From: a virus
DNA length: 41,381 bases
Strand: one strand, 5' to 3'
IMG/VR virus record: IMGVR_UViG_3300005563_000017
Location: 1-41,381 of that record
The position numbers and the translations under genes are program-made. The notes beneath the pieces are model-generated. The model was given only the letters and a program-made list of their open reading frames with translations. It made no database searches and had not been told where the DNA came from. This document shows, piece after piece, positions 14,418 through 22,461 of the stretch (position 1 is the first letter of the stretch; each line of letters begins with the position of its first letter).

Positions 14418-17354
14418 ATGCGCAAACTGATGCTTTGCGTGCTGGCCCTTGCTGCGTCCCTCGCGGCCTCGGGTCAGACCGCCGTGAACTACCTGACCAT
14501 CACCACGAACACCGTCAACGAGATCGCGGACGCCAGCGGCGACGGCATCACTGGCAGGTTTTGCGCGTATGCCACCGACCAGAACGATTTCCCGATCGCG
14601 TTCTCGGTGGCCGGCACTTTCCAGAGCCCGAAATCCTCCGCGTGCGTGAACATCTCGGGCGGCCAGTTTGCGTCCACATACAAGCTCGCGAACCCAGCGG
14701 TGACGCAGCCTTCCGGAATCCGCTACCACGTCACGGTGACGAATACGAAGACCAACCAGGTGACGCAGTACCCGGGCGTGACGATTTCGGTAAGCGCCGG
14801 CGTGAGCACATGGGACTGGGCAAGCTGGAATCCGGCGATTGGGATTCCGTCCATCCCGACCAATGTCATCACGGGTCCGGCGGGTGCGGCGGGCGCGCCT
14901 GGACCAAACTGCGCGACGGGCTCGCCGGCAGGGCACTGCGATCTTGGATCGGCAGAACTTGACGCTGCGTCTGTAGCGGCGCCGACCTCGGTGCAGAGCG
15001 GCGCGGTGAATTCGGTGTTTTACCCGATGCAGTGCGGGACAAGCGCCGCGCCATCGTGGTGCAAGGGCATCTATTTTCGCAAGCAATCGCCGGGGAGTGG
15101 CTACGTATCGACCGATACTCCGACCTGTGCTGTTTCGGGTGGAACCGTGGCCACCGGAGGTACTGCCGCAACGTGCGCCGCTGTCGTGACGCGTGCGGGC
15201 GGGCTCTGGTTTTATGTGACCAATCCTGGGTCGTATTCCACGCTGCCGACCACGGTGACAGTGGGCGGCACGGTGAGCGGCACTGGCGCCTCCGCCTCTC
15301 TGAATACAGTTTTCGGGGCGGATGTGGGTTCATGGACCAACCTGGCAATCGGCAACTGTCCGGTAGATGTGAACGGTTTTTATCACTGCACGATCATCAA
15401 CACAGCAACGGCGGCGCGCCTGCCGATGAACTCGACGATGCACGTCCCGGCCGGCATCGACGTAGAGTGTAAGGGGTCGCCATTAGTTTGGGCTCCCACT
15501 GTGGGCGTGGCGGCGCAATTGGGAAGCCCGCACCCTGGGGTTTCGGCGGATGGACACGCATCCTTTGATTGCCCCCTTCTCGGCCCTGAAATAACCGCCG
15601 GTGCCTATCTTCCCGCAGATACATCGATCGGTATGACCATCGGCGGCGATCCTAGCGTCAGCTATGGCGGGGGTTGGCAGGCCGTCGAAGCCGGAACGCC
15701 TCTCGGCGTTGGGTCGGCTGTGGACGCGACAGCGCAGGGGAACGGGTTCACGATCAAGTCTCGCTACATCGCGGGGTTCCATTATGGCGTGCAGGGCGGG
15801 AACAACTTTTATGTCGATGATTTCTATGTCCAGAGCTGGTATCGCAACTATATAGCGCTCGCGGACACGGCCTGTTTTAACCCTGCAACGTTCTTCGCAG
15901 GGCAAGAGGCTCTGAATATCTACGGTGGCCAGATGTGGGGGAACCGCGCCAACGCGATACGGATGGACTGCGGCAACCACTGGTCTCTGTTTGGTACCCG
16001 CGTCGATTACTCCAACAACGCCGGGTTGGCCGCGCCGTTCGACTGGGCCGGTACGGCGGCAGAAGGTGTGCGCGCCGCCAACGCCGAAATTTACGGGAAG
16101 AATGTATATGTCCAGTGCCACGGGTGCCATCTTGAGCACGCATCCGGGCCGATGATCTACACCTATCAAACTGCTGGGAAATCTGTGCTTCGGCTATTCG
16201 GTGGCACCCTGGTCCCGGCGGCGCCAATCGGCGATGACACGACACTCTCCGCTTGCTCGGGGAACGGCACCACCGTCGCGTTTACCGGCGCGTTCGACGC
16301 CTTGATGACGGGGCTCCAGGGCGGCGGCGGGGCGACGGTGGCGATCAGTGGATTTAGCGGGCCGTGCGCTGCATTCAACGGCCTCACGTTCAACGATATC
16401 TCGATCTCCGGCACGACGTTCACCGCAAACTCATCGGTCGTTGCATCGGGGACCGGCACCGGCCATGCAATTGTGCCCGCGGAGGCTGGCTATATCGCCC
16501 TGAATAAAATTGCAGGATCGCCTGAGGATGTAGTAGTGGACGGTACCTACTCGACCAACGCCAGCGGATCAGGGCAGGCCCTGAATGCCGTGACGCAGTG
16601 GGTGGATAACACAGGCGACGCCGGGGCGGCTGTGTCCGTCATCGGCGGCGAGGGGCAAGGTGGAGCTTATGGGCCACCAAAGACCATATTCTACGGGCTA
16701 AATCCTCAGTACCCGCCCACCATACTCGACAACAACGTACTCATCGACAATCACTTCGAAGGCTCTGCGGGGTCTACGCCGGACCTGATCCTGGTGCCCT
16801 CTACGACTGGGGCTTACGACAGCATCATGACCGGCGGCCGGCTGATCACAGACACTACGTTCCGCATGCAGTCAACGTTGAAGTGCAATGGGATTGCCGG
16901 GCAGCCTGGGTACGCCTTTGGTCCGGGCGGAAGCACTGCGGTGGACACTCGGCTTTGCAGGGTCGCGGCCGGTGTGCTCGATACTCCGGGCACCCTCCAA
17001 GCGGCGTCTTTCGCGGGCAATCAGACTGTATCGATCGCGCCCGGAACGGCCGCCGGCACGGGCGCGACCGCCGTCTGCGACACCGCCGACGGATACGCCT
17101 GCACGAACACTGGAGGAGTGGTCACGCTGGTGTCGGGCACGAGCCCCGGATCAGGTGACGTGCTGTCGATCGTGTGGGGCACAGCGTACTCGTCCAAGCC
17201 GGTGTGCGGCTGGGGCAGCGCGATTGGAACTCCGATCATTGGAGGGACGCAAGGCTACTCCAATCCAGCGACCACGACGACCACCAAGGCGGTGCTCGCG
17301 GTCAGCAGCGCTATCTCCGGCACGTACAAGATCGTCTATCGCTGCGGGCTGTAA
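14418..17354 (+). CDS. Tail fibre/spike with N-terminal signal-like sequence
   Basis: The 978-residue product opens with a textbook signal-like segment (MRKLMLCVLALAASLAASGQ), then an Ig-like domain, a short collagen-like run (GPAGAAGAPGPN, near residue 155), a long Gly/Ala/Thr/Ser-rich section consistent with a right-handed beta-helix (GGGWQAVEAGTPLGVGSAVD; VQGGNNFYVDDFYVQSWYRN), and a C-terminal beta domain with paired cysteines ending KIVYRCGL. Position after the tip protein and before lysis genes indicates a receptor-binding fibre or polysaccharide-degrading spike. A cleavable export signal on a virion protein assembled in the cytoplasm would be odd. GAGGAGAATTCC precedes the ATG. Confidence 0.75.
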   Translation: MRKLMLCVLALAASLAASGQTAVNYLTITTNTVNEIADASGDGITGRFCAYATDQNDFPIAFSVAGTFQSPKSSACVNISGGQFASTYKLANPAVTQPSGIRYHVTVTNTKTNQVTQYPGVTISVSAGVSTWDWASWNPAIGIPSIPTNVITGPAGAAGAPGPNCATGSPAGHCDLGSAELDAASVAAPTSVQSGAVNSVFYPMQCGTSAAPSWCKGIYFRKQSPGSGYVSTDTPTCAVSGGTVATGGTAATCAAVVTRAGGLWFYVTNPGSYSTLPTTVTVGGTVSGTGASASLNTVFGADVGSWTNLAIGNCPVDVNGFYHCTIINTATAARLPMNSTMHVPAGIDVECKGSPLVWAPTVGVAAQLGSPHPGVSADGHASFDCPLLGPEITAGAYLPADTSIGMTIGGDPSVSYGGGWQAVEAGTPLGVGSAVDATAQGNGFTIKSRYIAGFHYGVQGGNNFYVDDFYVQSWYRNYIALADTACFNPATFFAGQEALNIYGGQMWGNRANAIRMDCGNHWSLFGTRVDYSNNAGLAAPFDWAGTAAEGVRAANAEIYGKNVYVQCHGCHLEHASGPMIYTYQTAGKSVLRLFGGTLVPAAPIGDDTTLSACSGNGTTVAFTGAFDALMTGLQGGGGATVAISGFSGPCAAFNGLTFNDISISGTTFTANSSVVASGTGTGHAIVPAEAGYIALNKIAGSPEDVVVDGTYSTNASGSGQALNAVTQWVDNTGDAGAAVSVIGGEGQGGAYGPPKTIFYGLNPQYPPTILDNNVLIDNHFEGSAGSTPDLILVPSTTGAYDSIMTGGRLITDTTFRMQSTLKCNGIAGQPGYAFGPGGSTAVDTRLCRVAAGVLDTPGTLQAASFAGNQTVSIAPGTAAGTGATAVCDTADGYACTNTGGVVTLVSGTSPGSGDVLSIVWGTAYSSKPVCGWGSAIGTPIIGGTQGYSNPATTTTTKAVLAVSSAISGTYKIVYRCGL

Positions 17355-18946: not shown

Positions 18947-18977
18947 CCCCCGGGCCTTACGAGGCCTGGGGGATTTT
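18947..18977 (+). terminator. Terminator closing the late operon
   Basis: CCCCCGGGCC (18947-18956) pairs with GGCCTGGGGG (18963-18972), including one G-T pair, followed by ATTTTC. The loop contains the stop codon of the minus-strand gene, so the 3' ends of two convergent genes share this element. Confidence 0.8.
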
Positions 18978-19175
18978 CTGCTTTCCGAAGCGGGCAAGGG
19001 CTGCCTTTCGCGCTCGCTCGGAACGCTGCTCAGGTGTCATCCGCGCCGCTGCGCCATGGCCGCCAAGACGGGCGCGCTGGATCTTCTGCTCCTCTGTCAT
19101 GGATGCTGCCGCGGCTTTTCCGCCCATGCTCGCGAAAGAGCGGTTCGACTGAAGCGCAGTGTCCGAAAGTAACAT
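18957..19175 (-). CDS. Lone minus-strand small basic repeat protein
   Basis: The only convincing minus-strand gene encodes 72 residues, with GGAGGCGAACA before its ATG. Two tandem units, SMTEEQKIQRARLGGHGAAA and RMTPEQRSERARKAALARFG, share an M-T-x-E-Q...R-A-R...A-A pattern, and the N-terminal part (SFASMGGKAAAA) may be a partial third. Similar Arg/Lys/Ala-rich small proteins are common near mobile elements, but their function is unknown to me. It diverges from the integrase across a 95-bp spacer with an operator-like dyad, so a regulatory or DNA-binding job is possible. It ends inside the late terminator. Confidence 0.75.
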   Translation of the reverse strand: MLLSDTALQSNRSFASMGGKAAAASMTEEQKIQRARLGGHGAAARMTPEQRSERARKAALARFGKQKIPQAS

Positions 19176-19221
19176 TGTTCGCCTCCAGTATGATTACTTT
19201 TCCGTTGCTTAGGGAAAGTAA
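19165..19221. promoter_or_regulatory. Operator-like repeats between divergent genes
   Basis: GAAAGTAA occurs at 19165-19172 and 19214-19221, and its inverse (TTACTTTTC) at 19194-19202. The last two form a dyad: TTACTTTTCC, 8-base centre, GGGAAAGTAA (19194-19221). On either strand it contains TTACTT with a 17-base gap to a weak -10 (AGTAAG or AGTAAT). The third half-site covers the start of the minus-strand gene. It may control integrase and the 72-aa gene together. Confidence 0.5.
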
Positions 19222-19270
19222 GCATGGTACGTTTGCCGAACGGTACCTAGTTCAGCAAAGGATTGCATTT

Positions 19271-20431
19271 ATGCCCGGTCCTCGATCAGCGACAGGAGAG
19301 ACGCGCGCGGATACAGTTGCCCAACACACACTGGGGCACTTGGATTGCCCTGTGTGCGAAAGGGCCCGTATCTTGACACTCTCGAAAATCTCTTGCTCAT
19401 TGCCATTTCGAACCGCCTCAAGCCTCTGGTTAGATTCTCGCTCATTTCAAGGAATTCCGGGAGGCATAACTGCTCGCTACTTGCGACCGACAACCGAAAA
19501 GTCCTACCGCCAGTACATCACGTCGCTCAGTCTTTTCTTCGGTGATCTTCGCCTCGAACAGGTCCACCTCGGACATGTGCGCCAATATCAGGAGGCGCGC
19601 GTGGCAGGGACGGAGCCGTTCATCCGCAAGCGCCGCCCTAACAAGAACGTCCAGGCGGATCGCTGTCCGGCAGGTCCGAAGAAGGTCAATCAGGAGCTGT
19701 CGATCCTCAAGATGATCCTGCGGCGCGCCGGCTGCTGGACTGAGGAAATGGAAGAATTCTATGAGCCGTTCCGGGAGGATGCGACCGATGTCCCGCGCGC
19801 CCTCTTGCCGGAAGAGCAGAAGCGATGGCTTGAAATTGCCCTGATGCGCGAGCGCTGGTGGATCGTCTACTGGTACTCCCAGCTCGCCTTCGGCACAAGC
19901 ATGGGAACGAACGAGATTCGGTCTCTGCGCGTGGGCGATGTGAACCTGATGCACCGCATCGTCAATGTTCCTTCGGCAGGCGCGAAGAACGCTTACCGGG
20001 CGCGGACGATACCCATCACCAGCGCTGACACGCTCTGGGCCGCGGAGCAGCTTGTGGCGCGGGCCAGGGATCTCGGGGCTTGTTCGCCGATGCATTTCCT
20101 TTTTCCGTTTCGCCGGCCTCCAGCCGACTTCGATCCCACTCGCCCGATGACGGTAAGCGGCATCAAGAAGCCCTGGGAAGAGGTTCGCGCGGCCTCCGGG
20201 CTGAGATGGTTCAGGCCGTACGATACGCGCCACACGGCGCTTACCAGGTGGGCCGAATCGGGAATGGACGCGGCTACGCTGATGTCGCTCGCCGGCCATG
20301 TGACCCCGCGCATGATGCGCCACTACGTGCACATCTCCGAAGGCGTGAAGCGTGCGCAGTTGGGGAGCGTGCCGCGGATCGGGCCAGCTTCGGTCACGGT
20401 GCCGTTCTATATGGCAAAGAGCCGCGCCTGA
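19271..20431 (+). CDS. int: Tyrosine-family integrase
   Basis: The ATG at 19271 has AAAGGA eight bases upstream and gives 386 residues; a longer open frame runs back into the holin gene but lacks a better start. The N-terminal part includes a CPVC pair. The middle (YRQYITSLSLFFGDLRLEQV) is the SAM-like core-binding domain. The catalytic domain shows NEIRSLRVGD (first Arg), a Lys in the AGAKNAYRARTIPI beta turn, YDTRHTALT (Arg320; the usual first His is Tyr317), LAGH (His343) and the nucleophile Tyr352 in RHYVHIS. It would recombine the attP about 140 bases downstream with a host tRNA gene. Confidence 0.92.
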   Translation: MPGPRSATGETRADTVAQHTLGHLDCPVCERARILTLSKISCSLPFRTASSLWLDSRSFQGIPGGITARYLRPTTEKSYRQYITSLSLFFGDLRLEQVHLGHVRQYQEARVAGTEPFIRKRRPNKNVQADRCPAGPKKVNQELSILKMILRRAGCWTEEMEEFYEPFREDATDVPRALLPEEQKRWLEIALMRERWWIVYWYSQLAFGTSMGTNEIRSLRVGDVNLMHRIVNVPSAGAKNAYRARTIPITSADTLWAAEQLVARARDLGACSPMHFLFPFRRPPADFDPTRPMTVSGIKKPWEEVRAASGLRWFRPYDTRHTALTRWAESGMDAATLMSLAGHVTPRMMRHYVHISEGVKRAQLGSVPRIGPASVTVPFYMAKSRA

Positions 20432-20498
20432 ACGTCAACGAGCGAGCCCTGCACCGAGCGCTGGCCGTGGGGCTTGCTTATTGTGGAAAAAATAGTGC

Positions 20499-20527
20499 TT
20501 GCTTTCGCGGGCAAGTATGCATAATAA
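20499..20527 (+). promoter_or_regulatory. Strong sigma-70-type promoter of the early operon
   Basis: TTGCTT (20499-20504), 17-base spacer, TAATAA (20522-20527). CTTGC and GCAAG form a small dyad across the -35 and spacer, a possible repressor site. Transcription would begin near 20534 and run through attP into the early genes. Confidence 0.7.
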
Positions 20528-20570
20528 TCCTTTCCAGCAAAGAACCTCCTGCTGAGTGCGCTAAATGCGA

Positions 20571-20645
20571 CCTACGGGTAGAGGCGCTTGAACCTACGGA
20601 TTCATAACCCGTAGGTCGACAGTTCGATCCTGTCCTCCGCCACCA
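20571..20645 (+). other. attP: attP: 3' part of a tRNA(CAU) gene
   Basis: The segment contains an anticodon arm (CCTACGG ... CCGTAGG, anticodon CAT at 20603-20605), a perfect T arm (GACAG-TTCGATC-CTGTC, 20618-20634), the 3' acceptor strand CTCCGCC, discriminator A and encoded CCA (20643-20645). The matching 5' acceptor strand GGCGGAG and a normal D arm are absent upstream, so it is not a complete tRNA. A 3' tRNA fragment right after an integrase is the classic attP that restores the host tRNA upon integration. The target is tRNA-Met or tRNA-Ile2, both having CAU. The exact core boundary is unknown. Confidence 0.85.
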
Positions 20646-20837
20646 GATTCACGGCACGAGCAAGCTCCTTCCTCCAGTAAATCGCAGAAAATCAGCAACC
20701 TCAGCACAACCGGCGATATCGGCTGACCTCCTCCGTCTGCCTTCGACCAATGGGATTTCGTCCCTCGGTCGGTCGCCTCTGCAGCCTTAGCGCGGCTGCC
20801 ACCCTGCGCGGGACCACCGCGCGTGTGCGAGGTGCAC
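20646..20837 (+). promoter_or_regulatory. Early leader with two adjacent GC hairpins
   Basis: No gene is seen between attP and 20838. GCAGCC/GGCTGC (20781-20799, 7-base loop) and GCGCGG/CCGCGC (20806-20822, 5-base loop) lie just before the first early gene. Without T runs they are more likely attenuator-like or RNA-stabilising than simple terminators. Confidence 0.4.
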
Positions 20838-21323
20838 ATGACTCTTTCGATCTCCTCCGGCGCCGCGACGCCAGACCCACTCGACCCGATGCTGCAGAAC
20901 TCGATCATGATGGCGGACTGCATCCTCCGCGCCCTGACCGGGCTACCCCGACACAACCCCGTTCCCCAGGCCGACGGCTACGCGGACGCATGCCCCGGCT
21001 GCACCGGCGCCTCCGACGATCACATCGCTGCTTGCGCGTTATCGCCCGACGCTGTCGCGAAGGCTCTTGACAAGAAAGAGCCTGCTGGCCTGAAACCATT
21101 CGACCTCGACGCAGCGATGCGCGGCGCGGCGTTCATTCACCGCTTCGACATCGGACGCCCGCGGTGGGAACAACGCATATTGCGCAAGGTTCGCTTCTTC
21201 GACGACCCCGACCATCCGGCCTACCTGGTTTGGTCCGAAGAGTGGCTGGTTTATCCGGCCGACGATGAAGGGATCGAGGAAATGTCTCGCGACTTCCGCA
21301 TGGTGGAGGTCGTCAATGGCTAA
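20838..21323 (+). CDS. Hypothetical first early protein
   Basis: The ATG at 20838 with GAGG upstream is favoured over a GTG at 20823. The 161-residue product has an N-terminal region with a CPGC pair and further cysteines, and a C-terminal domain rich in aromatic and acidic residues (LRKVRFFDDPDHPAYLVWSE, then EWLVYPADDEG). I do not recognise a family. It is the first gene after the early promoter and overlaps the recombinase gene by 8 bases, which suggests coupling to recombination functions. Confidence 0.7.
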   Translation: MTLSISSGAATPDPLDPMLQNSIMMADCILRALTGLPRHNPVPQADGYADACPGCTGASDDHIAACALSPDAVAKALDKKEPAGLKPFDLDAAMRGAAFIHRFDIGRPRWEQRILRKVRFFDDPDHPAYLVWSEEWLVYPADDEGIEEMSRDFRMVEVVNG

Positions 21324-22461
21324 CCTCTCCTTCAAGAAAGCCGTGAAGTATGAAGCCAAGGGCCGCGTTGGCCTGATTGGCCCGGCGGGCAGCGGCAAGA
21401 GCTACACGATGCTCGAACTGGCTCAACTGCTGGCTGCGGGCGGCAAGGTCGCCGCGGTCGATACAGAGCATGGCAGCCTCTCGAAGTACGCCGACCGGTT
21501 CGACTTCGACGTACTCGAACTGAGCAGCTACACCCCTGACAACTTCCTTGATGCTCTGCGCGCGGCGGAGCAGGCCGGGTACGCCGTCTTCTGCTGCGAT
21601 TCCCTTTCGCACTTCTGGATGGGGAAGGATGGCGCGCTCGAATATGTAGATACCGCGAAAAAGCGCTCGAGCTCGCGCGACGACATGAGCGGCTGGAAGG
21701 AATTCCGGCCCCATGAGCGCGCGATGGTGGACGCGATGATCGCCTCACCCTGCCACATCATCTGCACGATGCGCACCAAGACGGCCTACGAAGAGCAGGT
21801 CAACGAGCGCACCGGCAAGAAGCAGCGCGTGAAGATCGGCCTTGCGCCGGTGCAGCGGGAAGGGCTCGAGTACGAGTTCGACCTGGTCGGCCTGATGGAT
21901 GAGGACAACACATTCATCGTCGATAAGACGCGCTGCCCCGATCTGTCCGGCAAGGCCATCACCAAGCCATCACAGAAGGACTTCGCGCCGTTCAGCGACT
22001 GGCTCAGGGGCGCGACGTCACCAGCTCCCGCGTCTGCGCCAGCGTCGGCGTCTGCTCCGGCGGCAAGGCCGGCAGCCTCGGCCCCAAGCGCTATCGCCGC
22101 GAAGCTCGAAGGCAATCAGCTCACCGCCCGCGTGAAGGATGTGCTCGCGAAGACGACCCAGCGCGGCAGCGAGTACCGCAACCTCATCTTCGATGCAGCG
22201 CCGGTTCCGGGTAAGGGCGTTGTGTGCTGGCATGCCAGCCTGTTCGGCGCGCTCGATACGGCGCCCGGCGAGCTCTGCTCCTTCCGGGTGGAAATCACTG
22301 AGAAGTACGCGACGATCCAGGACGTTCTCAAGATCGGCGACCTGCAGTTCCGTGAAGGCAAGCCCTTCTACGAAAACGACGATGCAGAACCCGAGCTCGC
22401 CTTCAGTGGCGCGCGCCAACAGGTGAATCCGGAGATTACCGATGACGACATCCCCTTCTAG
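21316..22461 (+). CDS. Sak4-like RecA-fold annealase fused to an SSB-like domain
   Basis: The ATG at 21316 overlaps the previous stop. The 381-residue product begins with a RecA-fold ATPase: Walker A GPAGSGKS at residues 22-29, a Walker B-type YAVFCCDSLSHFW near 95, and EEQVNERTGKKQRVKIGLAP, matching AAA_24/Sak4 phage proteins. An Ala/Pro/Ser linker at about 236-258 leads to a C-terminal domain with OB-fold-like sequence (LTARVKDVLAKTTQRGSEYR) and the exact ending DDDIPF, the protein-docking tip of bacterial SSBs. Sak4 proteins anneal single strands with help from a separate SSB; here both appear in one chain. The OB-fold is inferred. Confidence 0.8.
   Translation: MANLSFKKAVKYEAKGRVGLIGPAGSGKSYTMLELAQLLAAGGKVAAVDTEHGSLSKYADRFDFDVLELSSYTPDNFLDALRAAEQAGYAVFCCDSLSHFWMGKDGALEYVDTAKKRSSSRDDMSGWKEFRPHERAMVDAMIASPCHIICTMRTKTAYEEQVNERTGKKQRVKIGLAPVQREGLEYEFDLVGLMDEDNTFIVDKTRCPDLSGKAITKPSQKDFAPFSDWLRGATSPAPASAPASASAPAARPAASAPSAIAAKLEGNQLTARVKDVLAKTTQRGSEYRNLIFDAAPVPGKGVVCWHASLFGALDTAPGELCSFRVEITEKYATIQDVLKIGDLQFREGKPFYENDDAEPELAFSGARQQVNPEITDDDIPF

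Follow-up and report, generated by a model that had tools for sequence, protein, structure and literature searches.

The attachment site (attP) of the temperate phage recorded as IMGVR_UViG_3300005563_000017 is likely to be a physical break point within the early transcription unit, with an RNA lock likely added in many members of the family. The stretch of DNA analysed (the window, 41,381 nucleotides) comprises an entire virus record and carries a direct terminal repeat of 120 bp, giving a circular temperate phage genome of 41,261 bp. Practically all of its genes lie on the + strand, in the order integrase, promoter-like site, 3' core of a tRNA-Met(CAU) gene (20596-20645) and early operon (Table 1). 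Because the record is circular, this integrase-core-early operon arrangement represents attP and not attL or attR.

Table 1. Positions of features in the window
Feature	Position	Strand	Remarks
Tyrosine integrase (int)	19271..20431	+	PF00589 E 9.7e-19; PHROG integrase 4.5e-32; start codon uncertain
Sigma-70-like promoter facing attP	20499..20528	+	TTGCTT-18-AATAAT (or -17-TAATAA)
P-arm RNA segment TCCTGCTGAGTGCG	20547..20560	+	TGCTGAGTGC (20550-20559) is the predicted partner of the anti-Shine-Dalgarno strand
attP core, 3' 50 nt of tRNA-Met(CAU) gene	20596..20645	+	exact match to AB60 tRNA-Met
P' leader, highly structured RNA	20646..20837	+	fold z = -2.35
Anti-Shine-Dalgarno strand GCAACCTCAGCACA	20695..20708	+	pairs with 20824-20833 in MFE
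Conserved hairpin CGACCAATGGGATTTCGTCCCTCGGTC	20744..20770	+	no U-tract
Shine-Dalgarno region TGTGCGAGGT of first early gene	20824..20833	+	predicted sequestered
First early ORF, 161 aa	20838..21323	+	no family
Early operon continuation, phrog_1366 / Sak4-like ATPase	21316..22461	+	
Large terminase	35931		
Portal	38015		

Anatomy of attP and junctions of integrated relatives

Head and tail genes extend up to about position 17354 and are followed by the lysis region and then the integrase. Conjugation genes, a criterion for a Tn916-type element, are absent from the window, in which terminase, portal and tail proteins were identified instead. The PF00589 integrase adjoins attP, and the criterion of a tyrosine integrase phage targeting a tRNA 3' end is met. 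Early and replication genes from 20838 encode Sak4-like ATPase, Gp157/Gam-like, replication initiation, helicase, methyltransferase and RusA proteins. Of the window proteins searched, none was recognised as CI/Cro-like, in agreement with the original remark that no usual cI/cro pair is visible, and a repressor concealed in the unannotated ORFs of the window was looked for and not found. At 18957-19271 a basic 72-aa ORF on the minus strand diverges from int across an A/T-rich stretch, in which the inverted repeat TTACTTTTCC...GGGAAAGTAA marks a possible control region for int.

A 37-nt core pattern gave a single match among 84,980 species genomes, in Acidobacteria bacterium AB60, where it falls inside an intact tRNA-Met(CAT) gene; identity covers 20596-20645 and stops exactly at the CCA. 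The original prediction, made from sequence alone, had placed integrase, a TTGCTT site, a tRNA-like part ending in CCA and an early ORF at 20838 in that order on one strand, which held; its tRNA piece of 20571-20645 held only in part, 20571-20595 not being host tRNA sequence. Instead, GACCTACGG within 20571-20595 and the anticodon-stem side of the core together form an inverted repeat, of which GACCTACGG is the left half; by inference, this fits expectation for integrase core sites. ARAGORN found 0 tRNA genes in the window and there is no complete phage tRNA, while the Rfam tRNA model scored the core region at 25 bits, under the gathering score of 29. Readings of the core as tmRNA or as a tRNA whose variable arm is long were dropped after the match to AB60 tRNA-Met. 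The core sits in a non-coding tRNA piece and not in a repressor ORF, and this anatomy is established. Although the core is identical to the tRNA 3' end, restoration of the tRNA on integration was observed in relatives only, an integrated copy of the window phage itself not having been found. In AB60 an apparent integrase C-terminal remnant lies right behind the matching tRNA-Met (L054:3840-4050) and may be what is left of an element that occupied this site earlier.

Structural relatives of the window are mostly without this integrase. A search of viral contigs with the integrase as single query gave no match, integrase relatives being recovered there only after the switch to an alignment query (A1); relatives were also found in genomes of the AB60 class, and identity over an alignment was 36-49%. 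A tRNA 3' core follows int in 27 integrase-related elements, window included, the cores deriving from tRNA Met, Lys, Arg, Thr and others, and the closest sister at the site is L143 (IMGVR 3300048818_000095). One near-identical phage was present in both states, as attP in L211 and as attL (L210) plus attR (L129) on one contig. The P' side of L211 is 96-100% identical in most 50-bp windows to L210, which lies behind an intact tRNA-Lys, and its P side is 98-100% identical over the first 100 bp to L129, which lies before host DNA. L191 and L144 are the two ends of one tRNA-Met prophage. Another tRNA-Met prophage, G235, measures 40 kb and has repeats of 58 bp, and G427 is a tRNA-Thr prophage with both ends. 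In all of these (L211/L210/L129, G235, L191/L144 and G427) the integrated early operon lies directly behind the restored host tRNA and the int end is at the far junction, int being at the attR end in G235, L129 and L144. A ParB-like early gene to the right of attP in L119, L121, L122, L124 and L146 is homologous to the G235 gene behind the tRNA. These junctions are established, and the predicted attL and attR at a tRNA gene, with early genes behind the restored tRNA and int at the far end, held in relatives.

Small XRE/Cro-like genes were observed between int and the tRNA core in L114, L115, L120, L148, L150 and L151 and at L041:13309-13526 (read by eye), and would be expected to remain at the attR end after integration. 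At the attR of G229 (L107-L108) a P'-like segment and hairpin recur on the host side, which would fit a tandem arrangement with an older related element.

Promoter-like sites on either side of the core

The -35 hexamer of the window promoter, TTGCTT, lies at 20499-20504. The -10 originally proposed, TAATAA with a 17-nt spacer, is amended, since AATAAT (20523-20528) with a spacer of 18 nt is better. This is the best + strand site, yet taken alone it reached only p = 0.109 against shuffles, and a strict consensus promoter scan gave 0 hits for it. Sister L143 carries TTGAAA-17-TAGGTT at the same position, and it is through recurrence at the same place in relatives that the window promoter exceeds chance; its activity is inferred. 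When a fixed sigma-70 matrix was scored against dinucleotide shuffles in the 27 elements, promoters directed towards the core were found in the P arm with a Fisher p of 1e-10 (0.75 for the reverse strand), and the signal persisted at 3.8e-8 with five elements dropped. The distance from promoter to core is mostly 60-95 bp while that from int to core ranges from about 95 to 600 bp, and the P arms otherwise share little sequence. A convincing -35/-10 is missing in G235, L122 and L144.

The same test applied to the leader between core and first gene gave no promoter signal (family p = 0.995, window p = 0.99); an early promoter between 20646 and 20838, which would have counted against the original prediction, was thus not found by the matrix test. 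These promoter statistics are established, and the Tn916-type criterion of an outward promoter at one end and the operon at the other is met, with the promoter judged by sequence only. A telling contrast to this attP-split family is provided by the structural relative G002, in which a tyrosine integrase was searched for and none detected, and in which TTGACA-17-TACTAT stands directly before the equivalent early leader (L038:18980-19300). A divergent small HTH-like gene is also carried by G002.

Predicted pairing of P and P' RNA at the first early ribosome site

Comparison of the window with L143 revealed blocks kept in P (TCCTGCTGAGTGCG), in P' (CAACCTCAGC) and at the ribosome site (GTGCGAGGTGCAC, also common to G002), with divergence between them. 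TGCTGAG in P is predicted to pair with CTCAGCA in P', whose alternative partner is the ribosome site, and this pairing appears in a constrained fold of the window and in the MFE of L143. The predicted cost of opening the ribosome site was 3.3 kcal/mol with P and 7.0 kcal/mol without P in the window (rank 2 of 12, p = 0.15), and 0.7 with P and 7.2 without P in L143 (rank 1). The P' leaders of relatives are likewise predicted to form a hairpin concealing the first ribosome site, e.g. CTCCTTCGGTGTGACAACACTCTGAAGGAG in G235. A terminator between the tRNA CCA and the first early gene was found in several relatives, intrinsic terminators lying behind the tRNA or core in G427, G556, L122, L124 and L136, and none was found in the window leader.

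In several elements the P transcript begins with a stretch complementary to the strand hiding the ribosome site, as in G235 (GTCACATTGAAG with CTTCGGTGTGAC), L121 (GTCGCATTGA with TCGGTGCGAC), L124 (GTTACACCGAAG with CTTCGGCGTAAC) and L144/L191 (GTCTAACCGA... with ...TCGGTTTAGAC). Across six elements 95% of helix pairs were formed, with both sides changed in 5 of 10 pairs, and helix covariation was 0.553 against 0.264 +/- 0.05, a value reached by 0 of 500 shuffles, slid controls giving at most 0.133. One bulged base was trimmed by hand in each of two of the six rows. P contains a single copy of the partner motif; in P' it is almost always confined to the inverted orientation and to at most one copy, and differences between the copies are G-U compatible. 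This covariation is established, while the function of the pairing is inferred.

An element's own P lowered the predicted cost of freeing the ribosome site by 3-10 kcal/mol in 11 of 12 elements and was the best of the 12 P arms in nine (Fisher 2.4e-6 against shuffled P, 0.0012 against swapped P). These energies are model predictions in which transcript starts were assumed about 7 nt after the -10 and start codons were picked by eye, and several pairings had already been noticed before the formal test. Of the pairings that had not been spotted in advance, those of L129 and L146 rank first and that of L122 last; one of three elements fetched after the model had been formed came top (G556, first of 15), G427 and G220 being seventh, or average. 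In the remaining subgroups, of which several carry an XRE-type gene in the int-core interval, an RNA effect was mostly lacking. The RNA lock is predicted by the model to be confined to part of the family, with tRNA-Met and tRNA-Lys types among its members.

Comparing P with P' through long permissive duplexes or gapped alignments gave too much noise, and the opening energy of the ribosome site was used in their place. Terminator-like hairpins containing CCGTCGCTC or similar were seen in P' of the tRNA-Met elements L121, L124, L125/L197, L144/L191, L136 and G556; CCGTCGCTC is complementary both to GAGCGACGG of tRNA-Met and to a copy in the P arm, with no function explained. A terminator/antiterminator model, in which P2 GAGCGACGG is set against the 3' arm of the terminator, seemed attractive but is not put forward, since thermodynamic opening of the hairpin lacked support in six of seven elements, the hairpin remaining closed in their predicted attP transcript.

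Proposed switch, rival explanations and known systems

In the proposed mechanism, transcription from the P-arm promoter of the circular phage would run through the tRNA-Met core and on into the early operon. Once the phage had integrated at the host tRNA-Met, the early operon would lie immediately downstream of the restored tRNA, with promoter and integrase stranded at the other junction and directed towards host DNA. In many tRNA-Met and tRNA-Lys members a second lock would be present, the ribosome site of the first early gene being hidden in a hairpin until it is released by pairing of the hiding strand with the 5' end of the P-arm transcript. As this opening RNA would be made only with P and P' joined, the ribosome site would stay closed in any mRNA produced by read-through from the host tRNA, and in several members such read-through would encounter a terminator as well. 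The original prediction held that integration alone would cut off the early genes; since in many elements the core is followed by a hairpin resembling a terminator and by a concealed ribosome site, that account is probably incomplete. Its claims that the promoter drives the early genes in the circle, that the lysogen is silent and that separation suffices remain inferred, as does re-expression after excision, in the absence of expression, binding or structure-probing data. A bolder reading, that attP splits a cis RNA switch so that early genes are translated only from the excised circle without any protein repressor, is one we consider not quite as probable as its negation.

The chief rival is separation of the promoter only, as in Tn916, with P/P' complementarity having no RNA function, which we hold to fall a little short of an even chance. 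In its favour, the contrast between promoter and no promoter is the strongest signal, and L122 lacks the RNA signal, which is weak in most of the other subgroups and only average for G427 and G220; against it stand the compensatory changes and the swap control, in which own P was best in 9 of 12. It is also possible that the inverted P/P' repeats are DNA sites, either integrase arm-type or regulator sites, and not RNA partners. Lambda-type tyrosine integrases have arm sites in both arms; such sites could co-vary with the protein, and the terminator hairpins of tRNA-Met members echo GAGCGACGG of the attB half-site. However, there is a single P copy and almost always no more than one inverted P' copy, copy differences are compatible with G-U pairs, and the partner overlaps the strand hiding the ribosome site, so that own P eases opening in 11 of 12.

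An ordinary repressor controlling the promoter, with the position of attP incidental, cannot be excluded: XRE-like genes lie between int and core in L114, L115, L120, L150 and L151, and also G007, palindromes are close to some promoters, and in the window such a protein might be unidentified. Set against this, none was recognised among the window proteins searched, most tRNA-Met members show none in the interval from int to core, and integration parts promoter from operon in any case. Finally, the prophage early operon could be deliberately read from the host tRNA promoter, as is ICEKp1 int. The early genes do lie directly behind the tRNA with no promoter of their own detectable, but this reading is unlikely given the intrinsic terminators behind the tRNA in G427, G556, L122, L124 and L136 and a ribosome site predicted to be closed without P.

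On the preferred reading, of attP as a break point in the early transcription unit, the genome map itself may be the switch, where lysogeny is usually explained by a repressor. In a family of largely soil phages, whose integrase has relatives in genomes of Acidobacteriota, attP appears to be set within the early transcription unit for several host tRNAs, extending excision-coupled expression, a rule of conjugative elements, to the lytic programme of a tailed phage. The predicted RNA device is compact, its riboregulator halves being joined or parted by site-specific recombination.

Joining of promoter and operon only in the circle is a principle already known from Tn916 and ICE int genes. In Tn916, Porf7 and the operon lie at opposite ends and are joined only in the circle, a terminator insulator (T1) lies behind the junction, and the cis-acting canT RNA is made only from the joined form (PMC11658703). 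The phages share the placing of promoter and operon at opposite ends and, by prediction, an RNA from the joined form only. Tn916 is, however, a conjugative element in which canT, some 340-450 nt long, acts as a processive antiterminator, whereas here the predicted RNA partner hides a ribosome site and the genes controlled are a lytic early operon; terminators that might serve as a Tn916-like insulator were found in G427, G556, L122, L124 and L136 and none in the window. ICEKp1, ICEclc and ICEEc1 integrate at tRNA 3' ends, circularisation is required for an outward promoter at the far end to reach the gene next to the tRNA, and leader stem-loops attenuate tRNA read-through (PMC13023037); in those elements int is behind the tRNA, whereas here int is at the opposite end and the early operon is behind the tRNA. 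In mycobacteriophage BPs and relatives attP lies within the repressor gene and integration alters the repressor C-terminus (PMC4557955). Integration at attP itself changes the regulatory state in BPs and, by inference, here, but with no repressor recognised among the window proteins searched and attP between promoter and operon, this is not BPs-type immunity. Tyrosine integrases targeting tRNA genes are shared with tRNA-dependent lysogeny (PMC10865867), from which the window phage differs in that its 50-nt core would restore the host tRNA and there is no complete phage tRNA. Relative to the open-access literature searched, what is new is the application of the circle-only principle to the lytic early operon of a tailed phage at tRNA genes, together with the predicted split ribosome-site opener.
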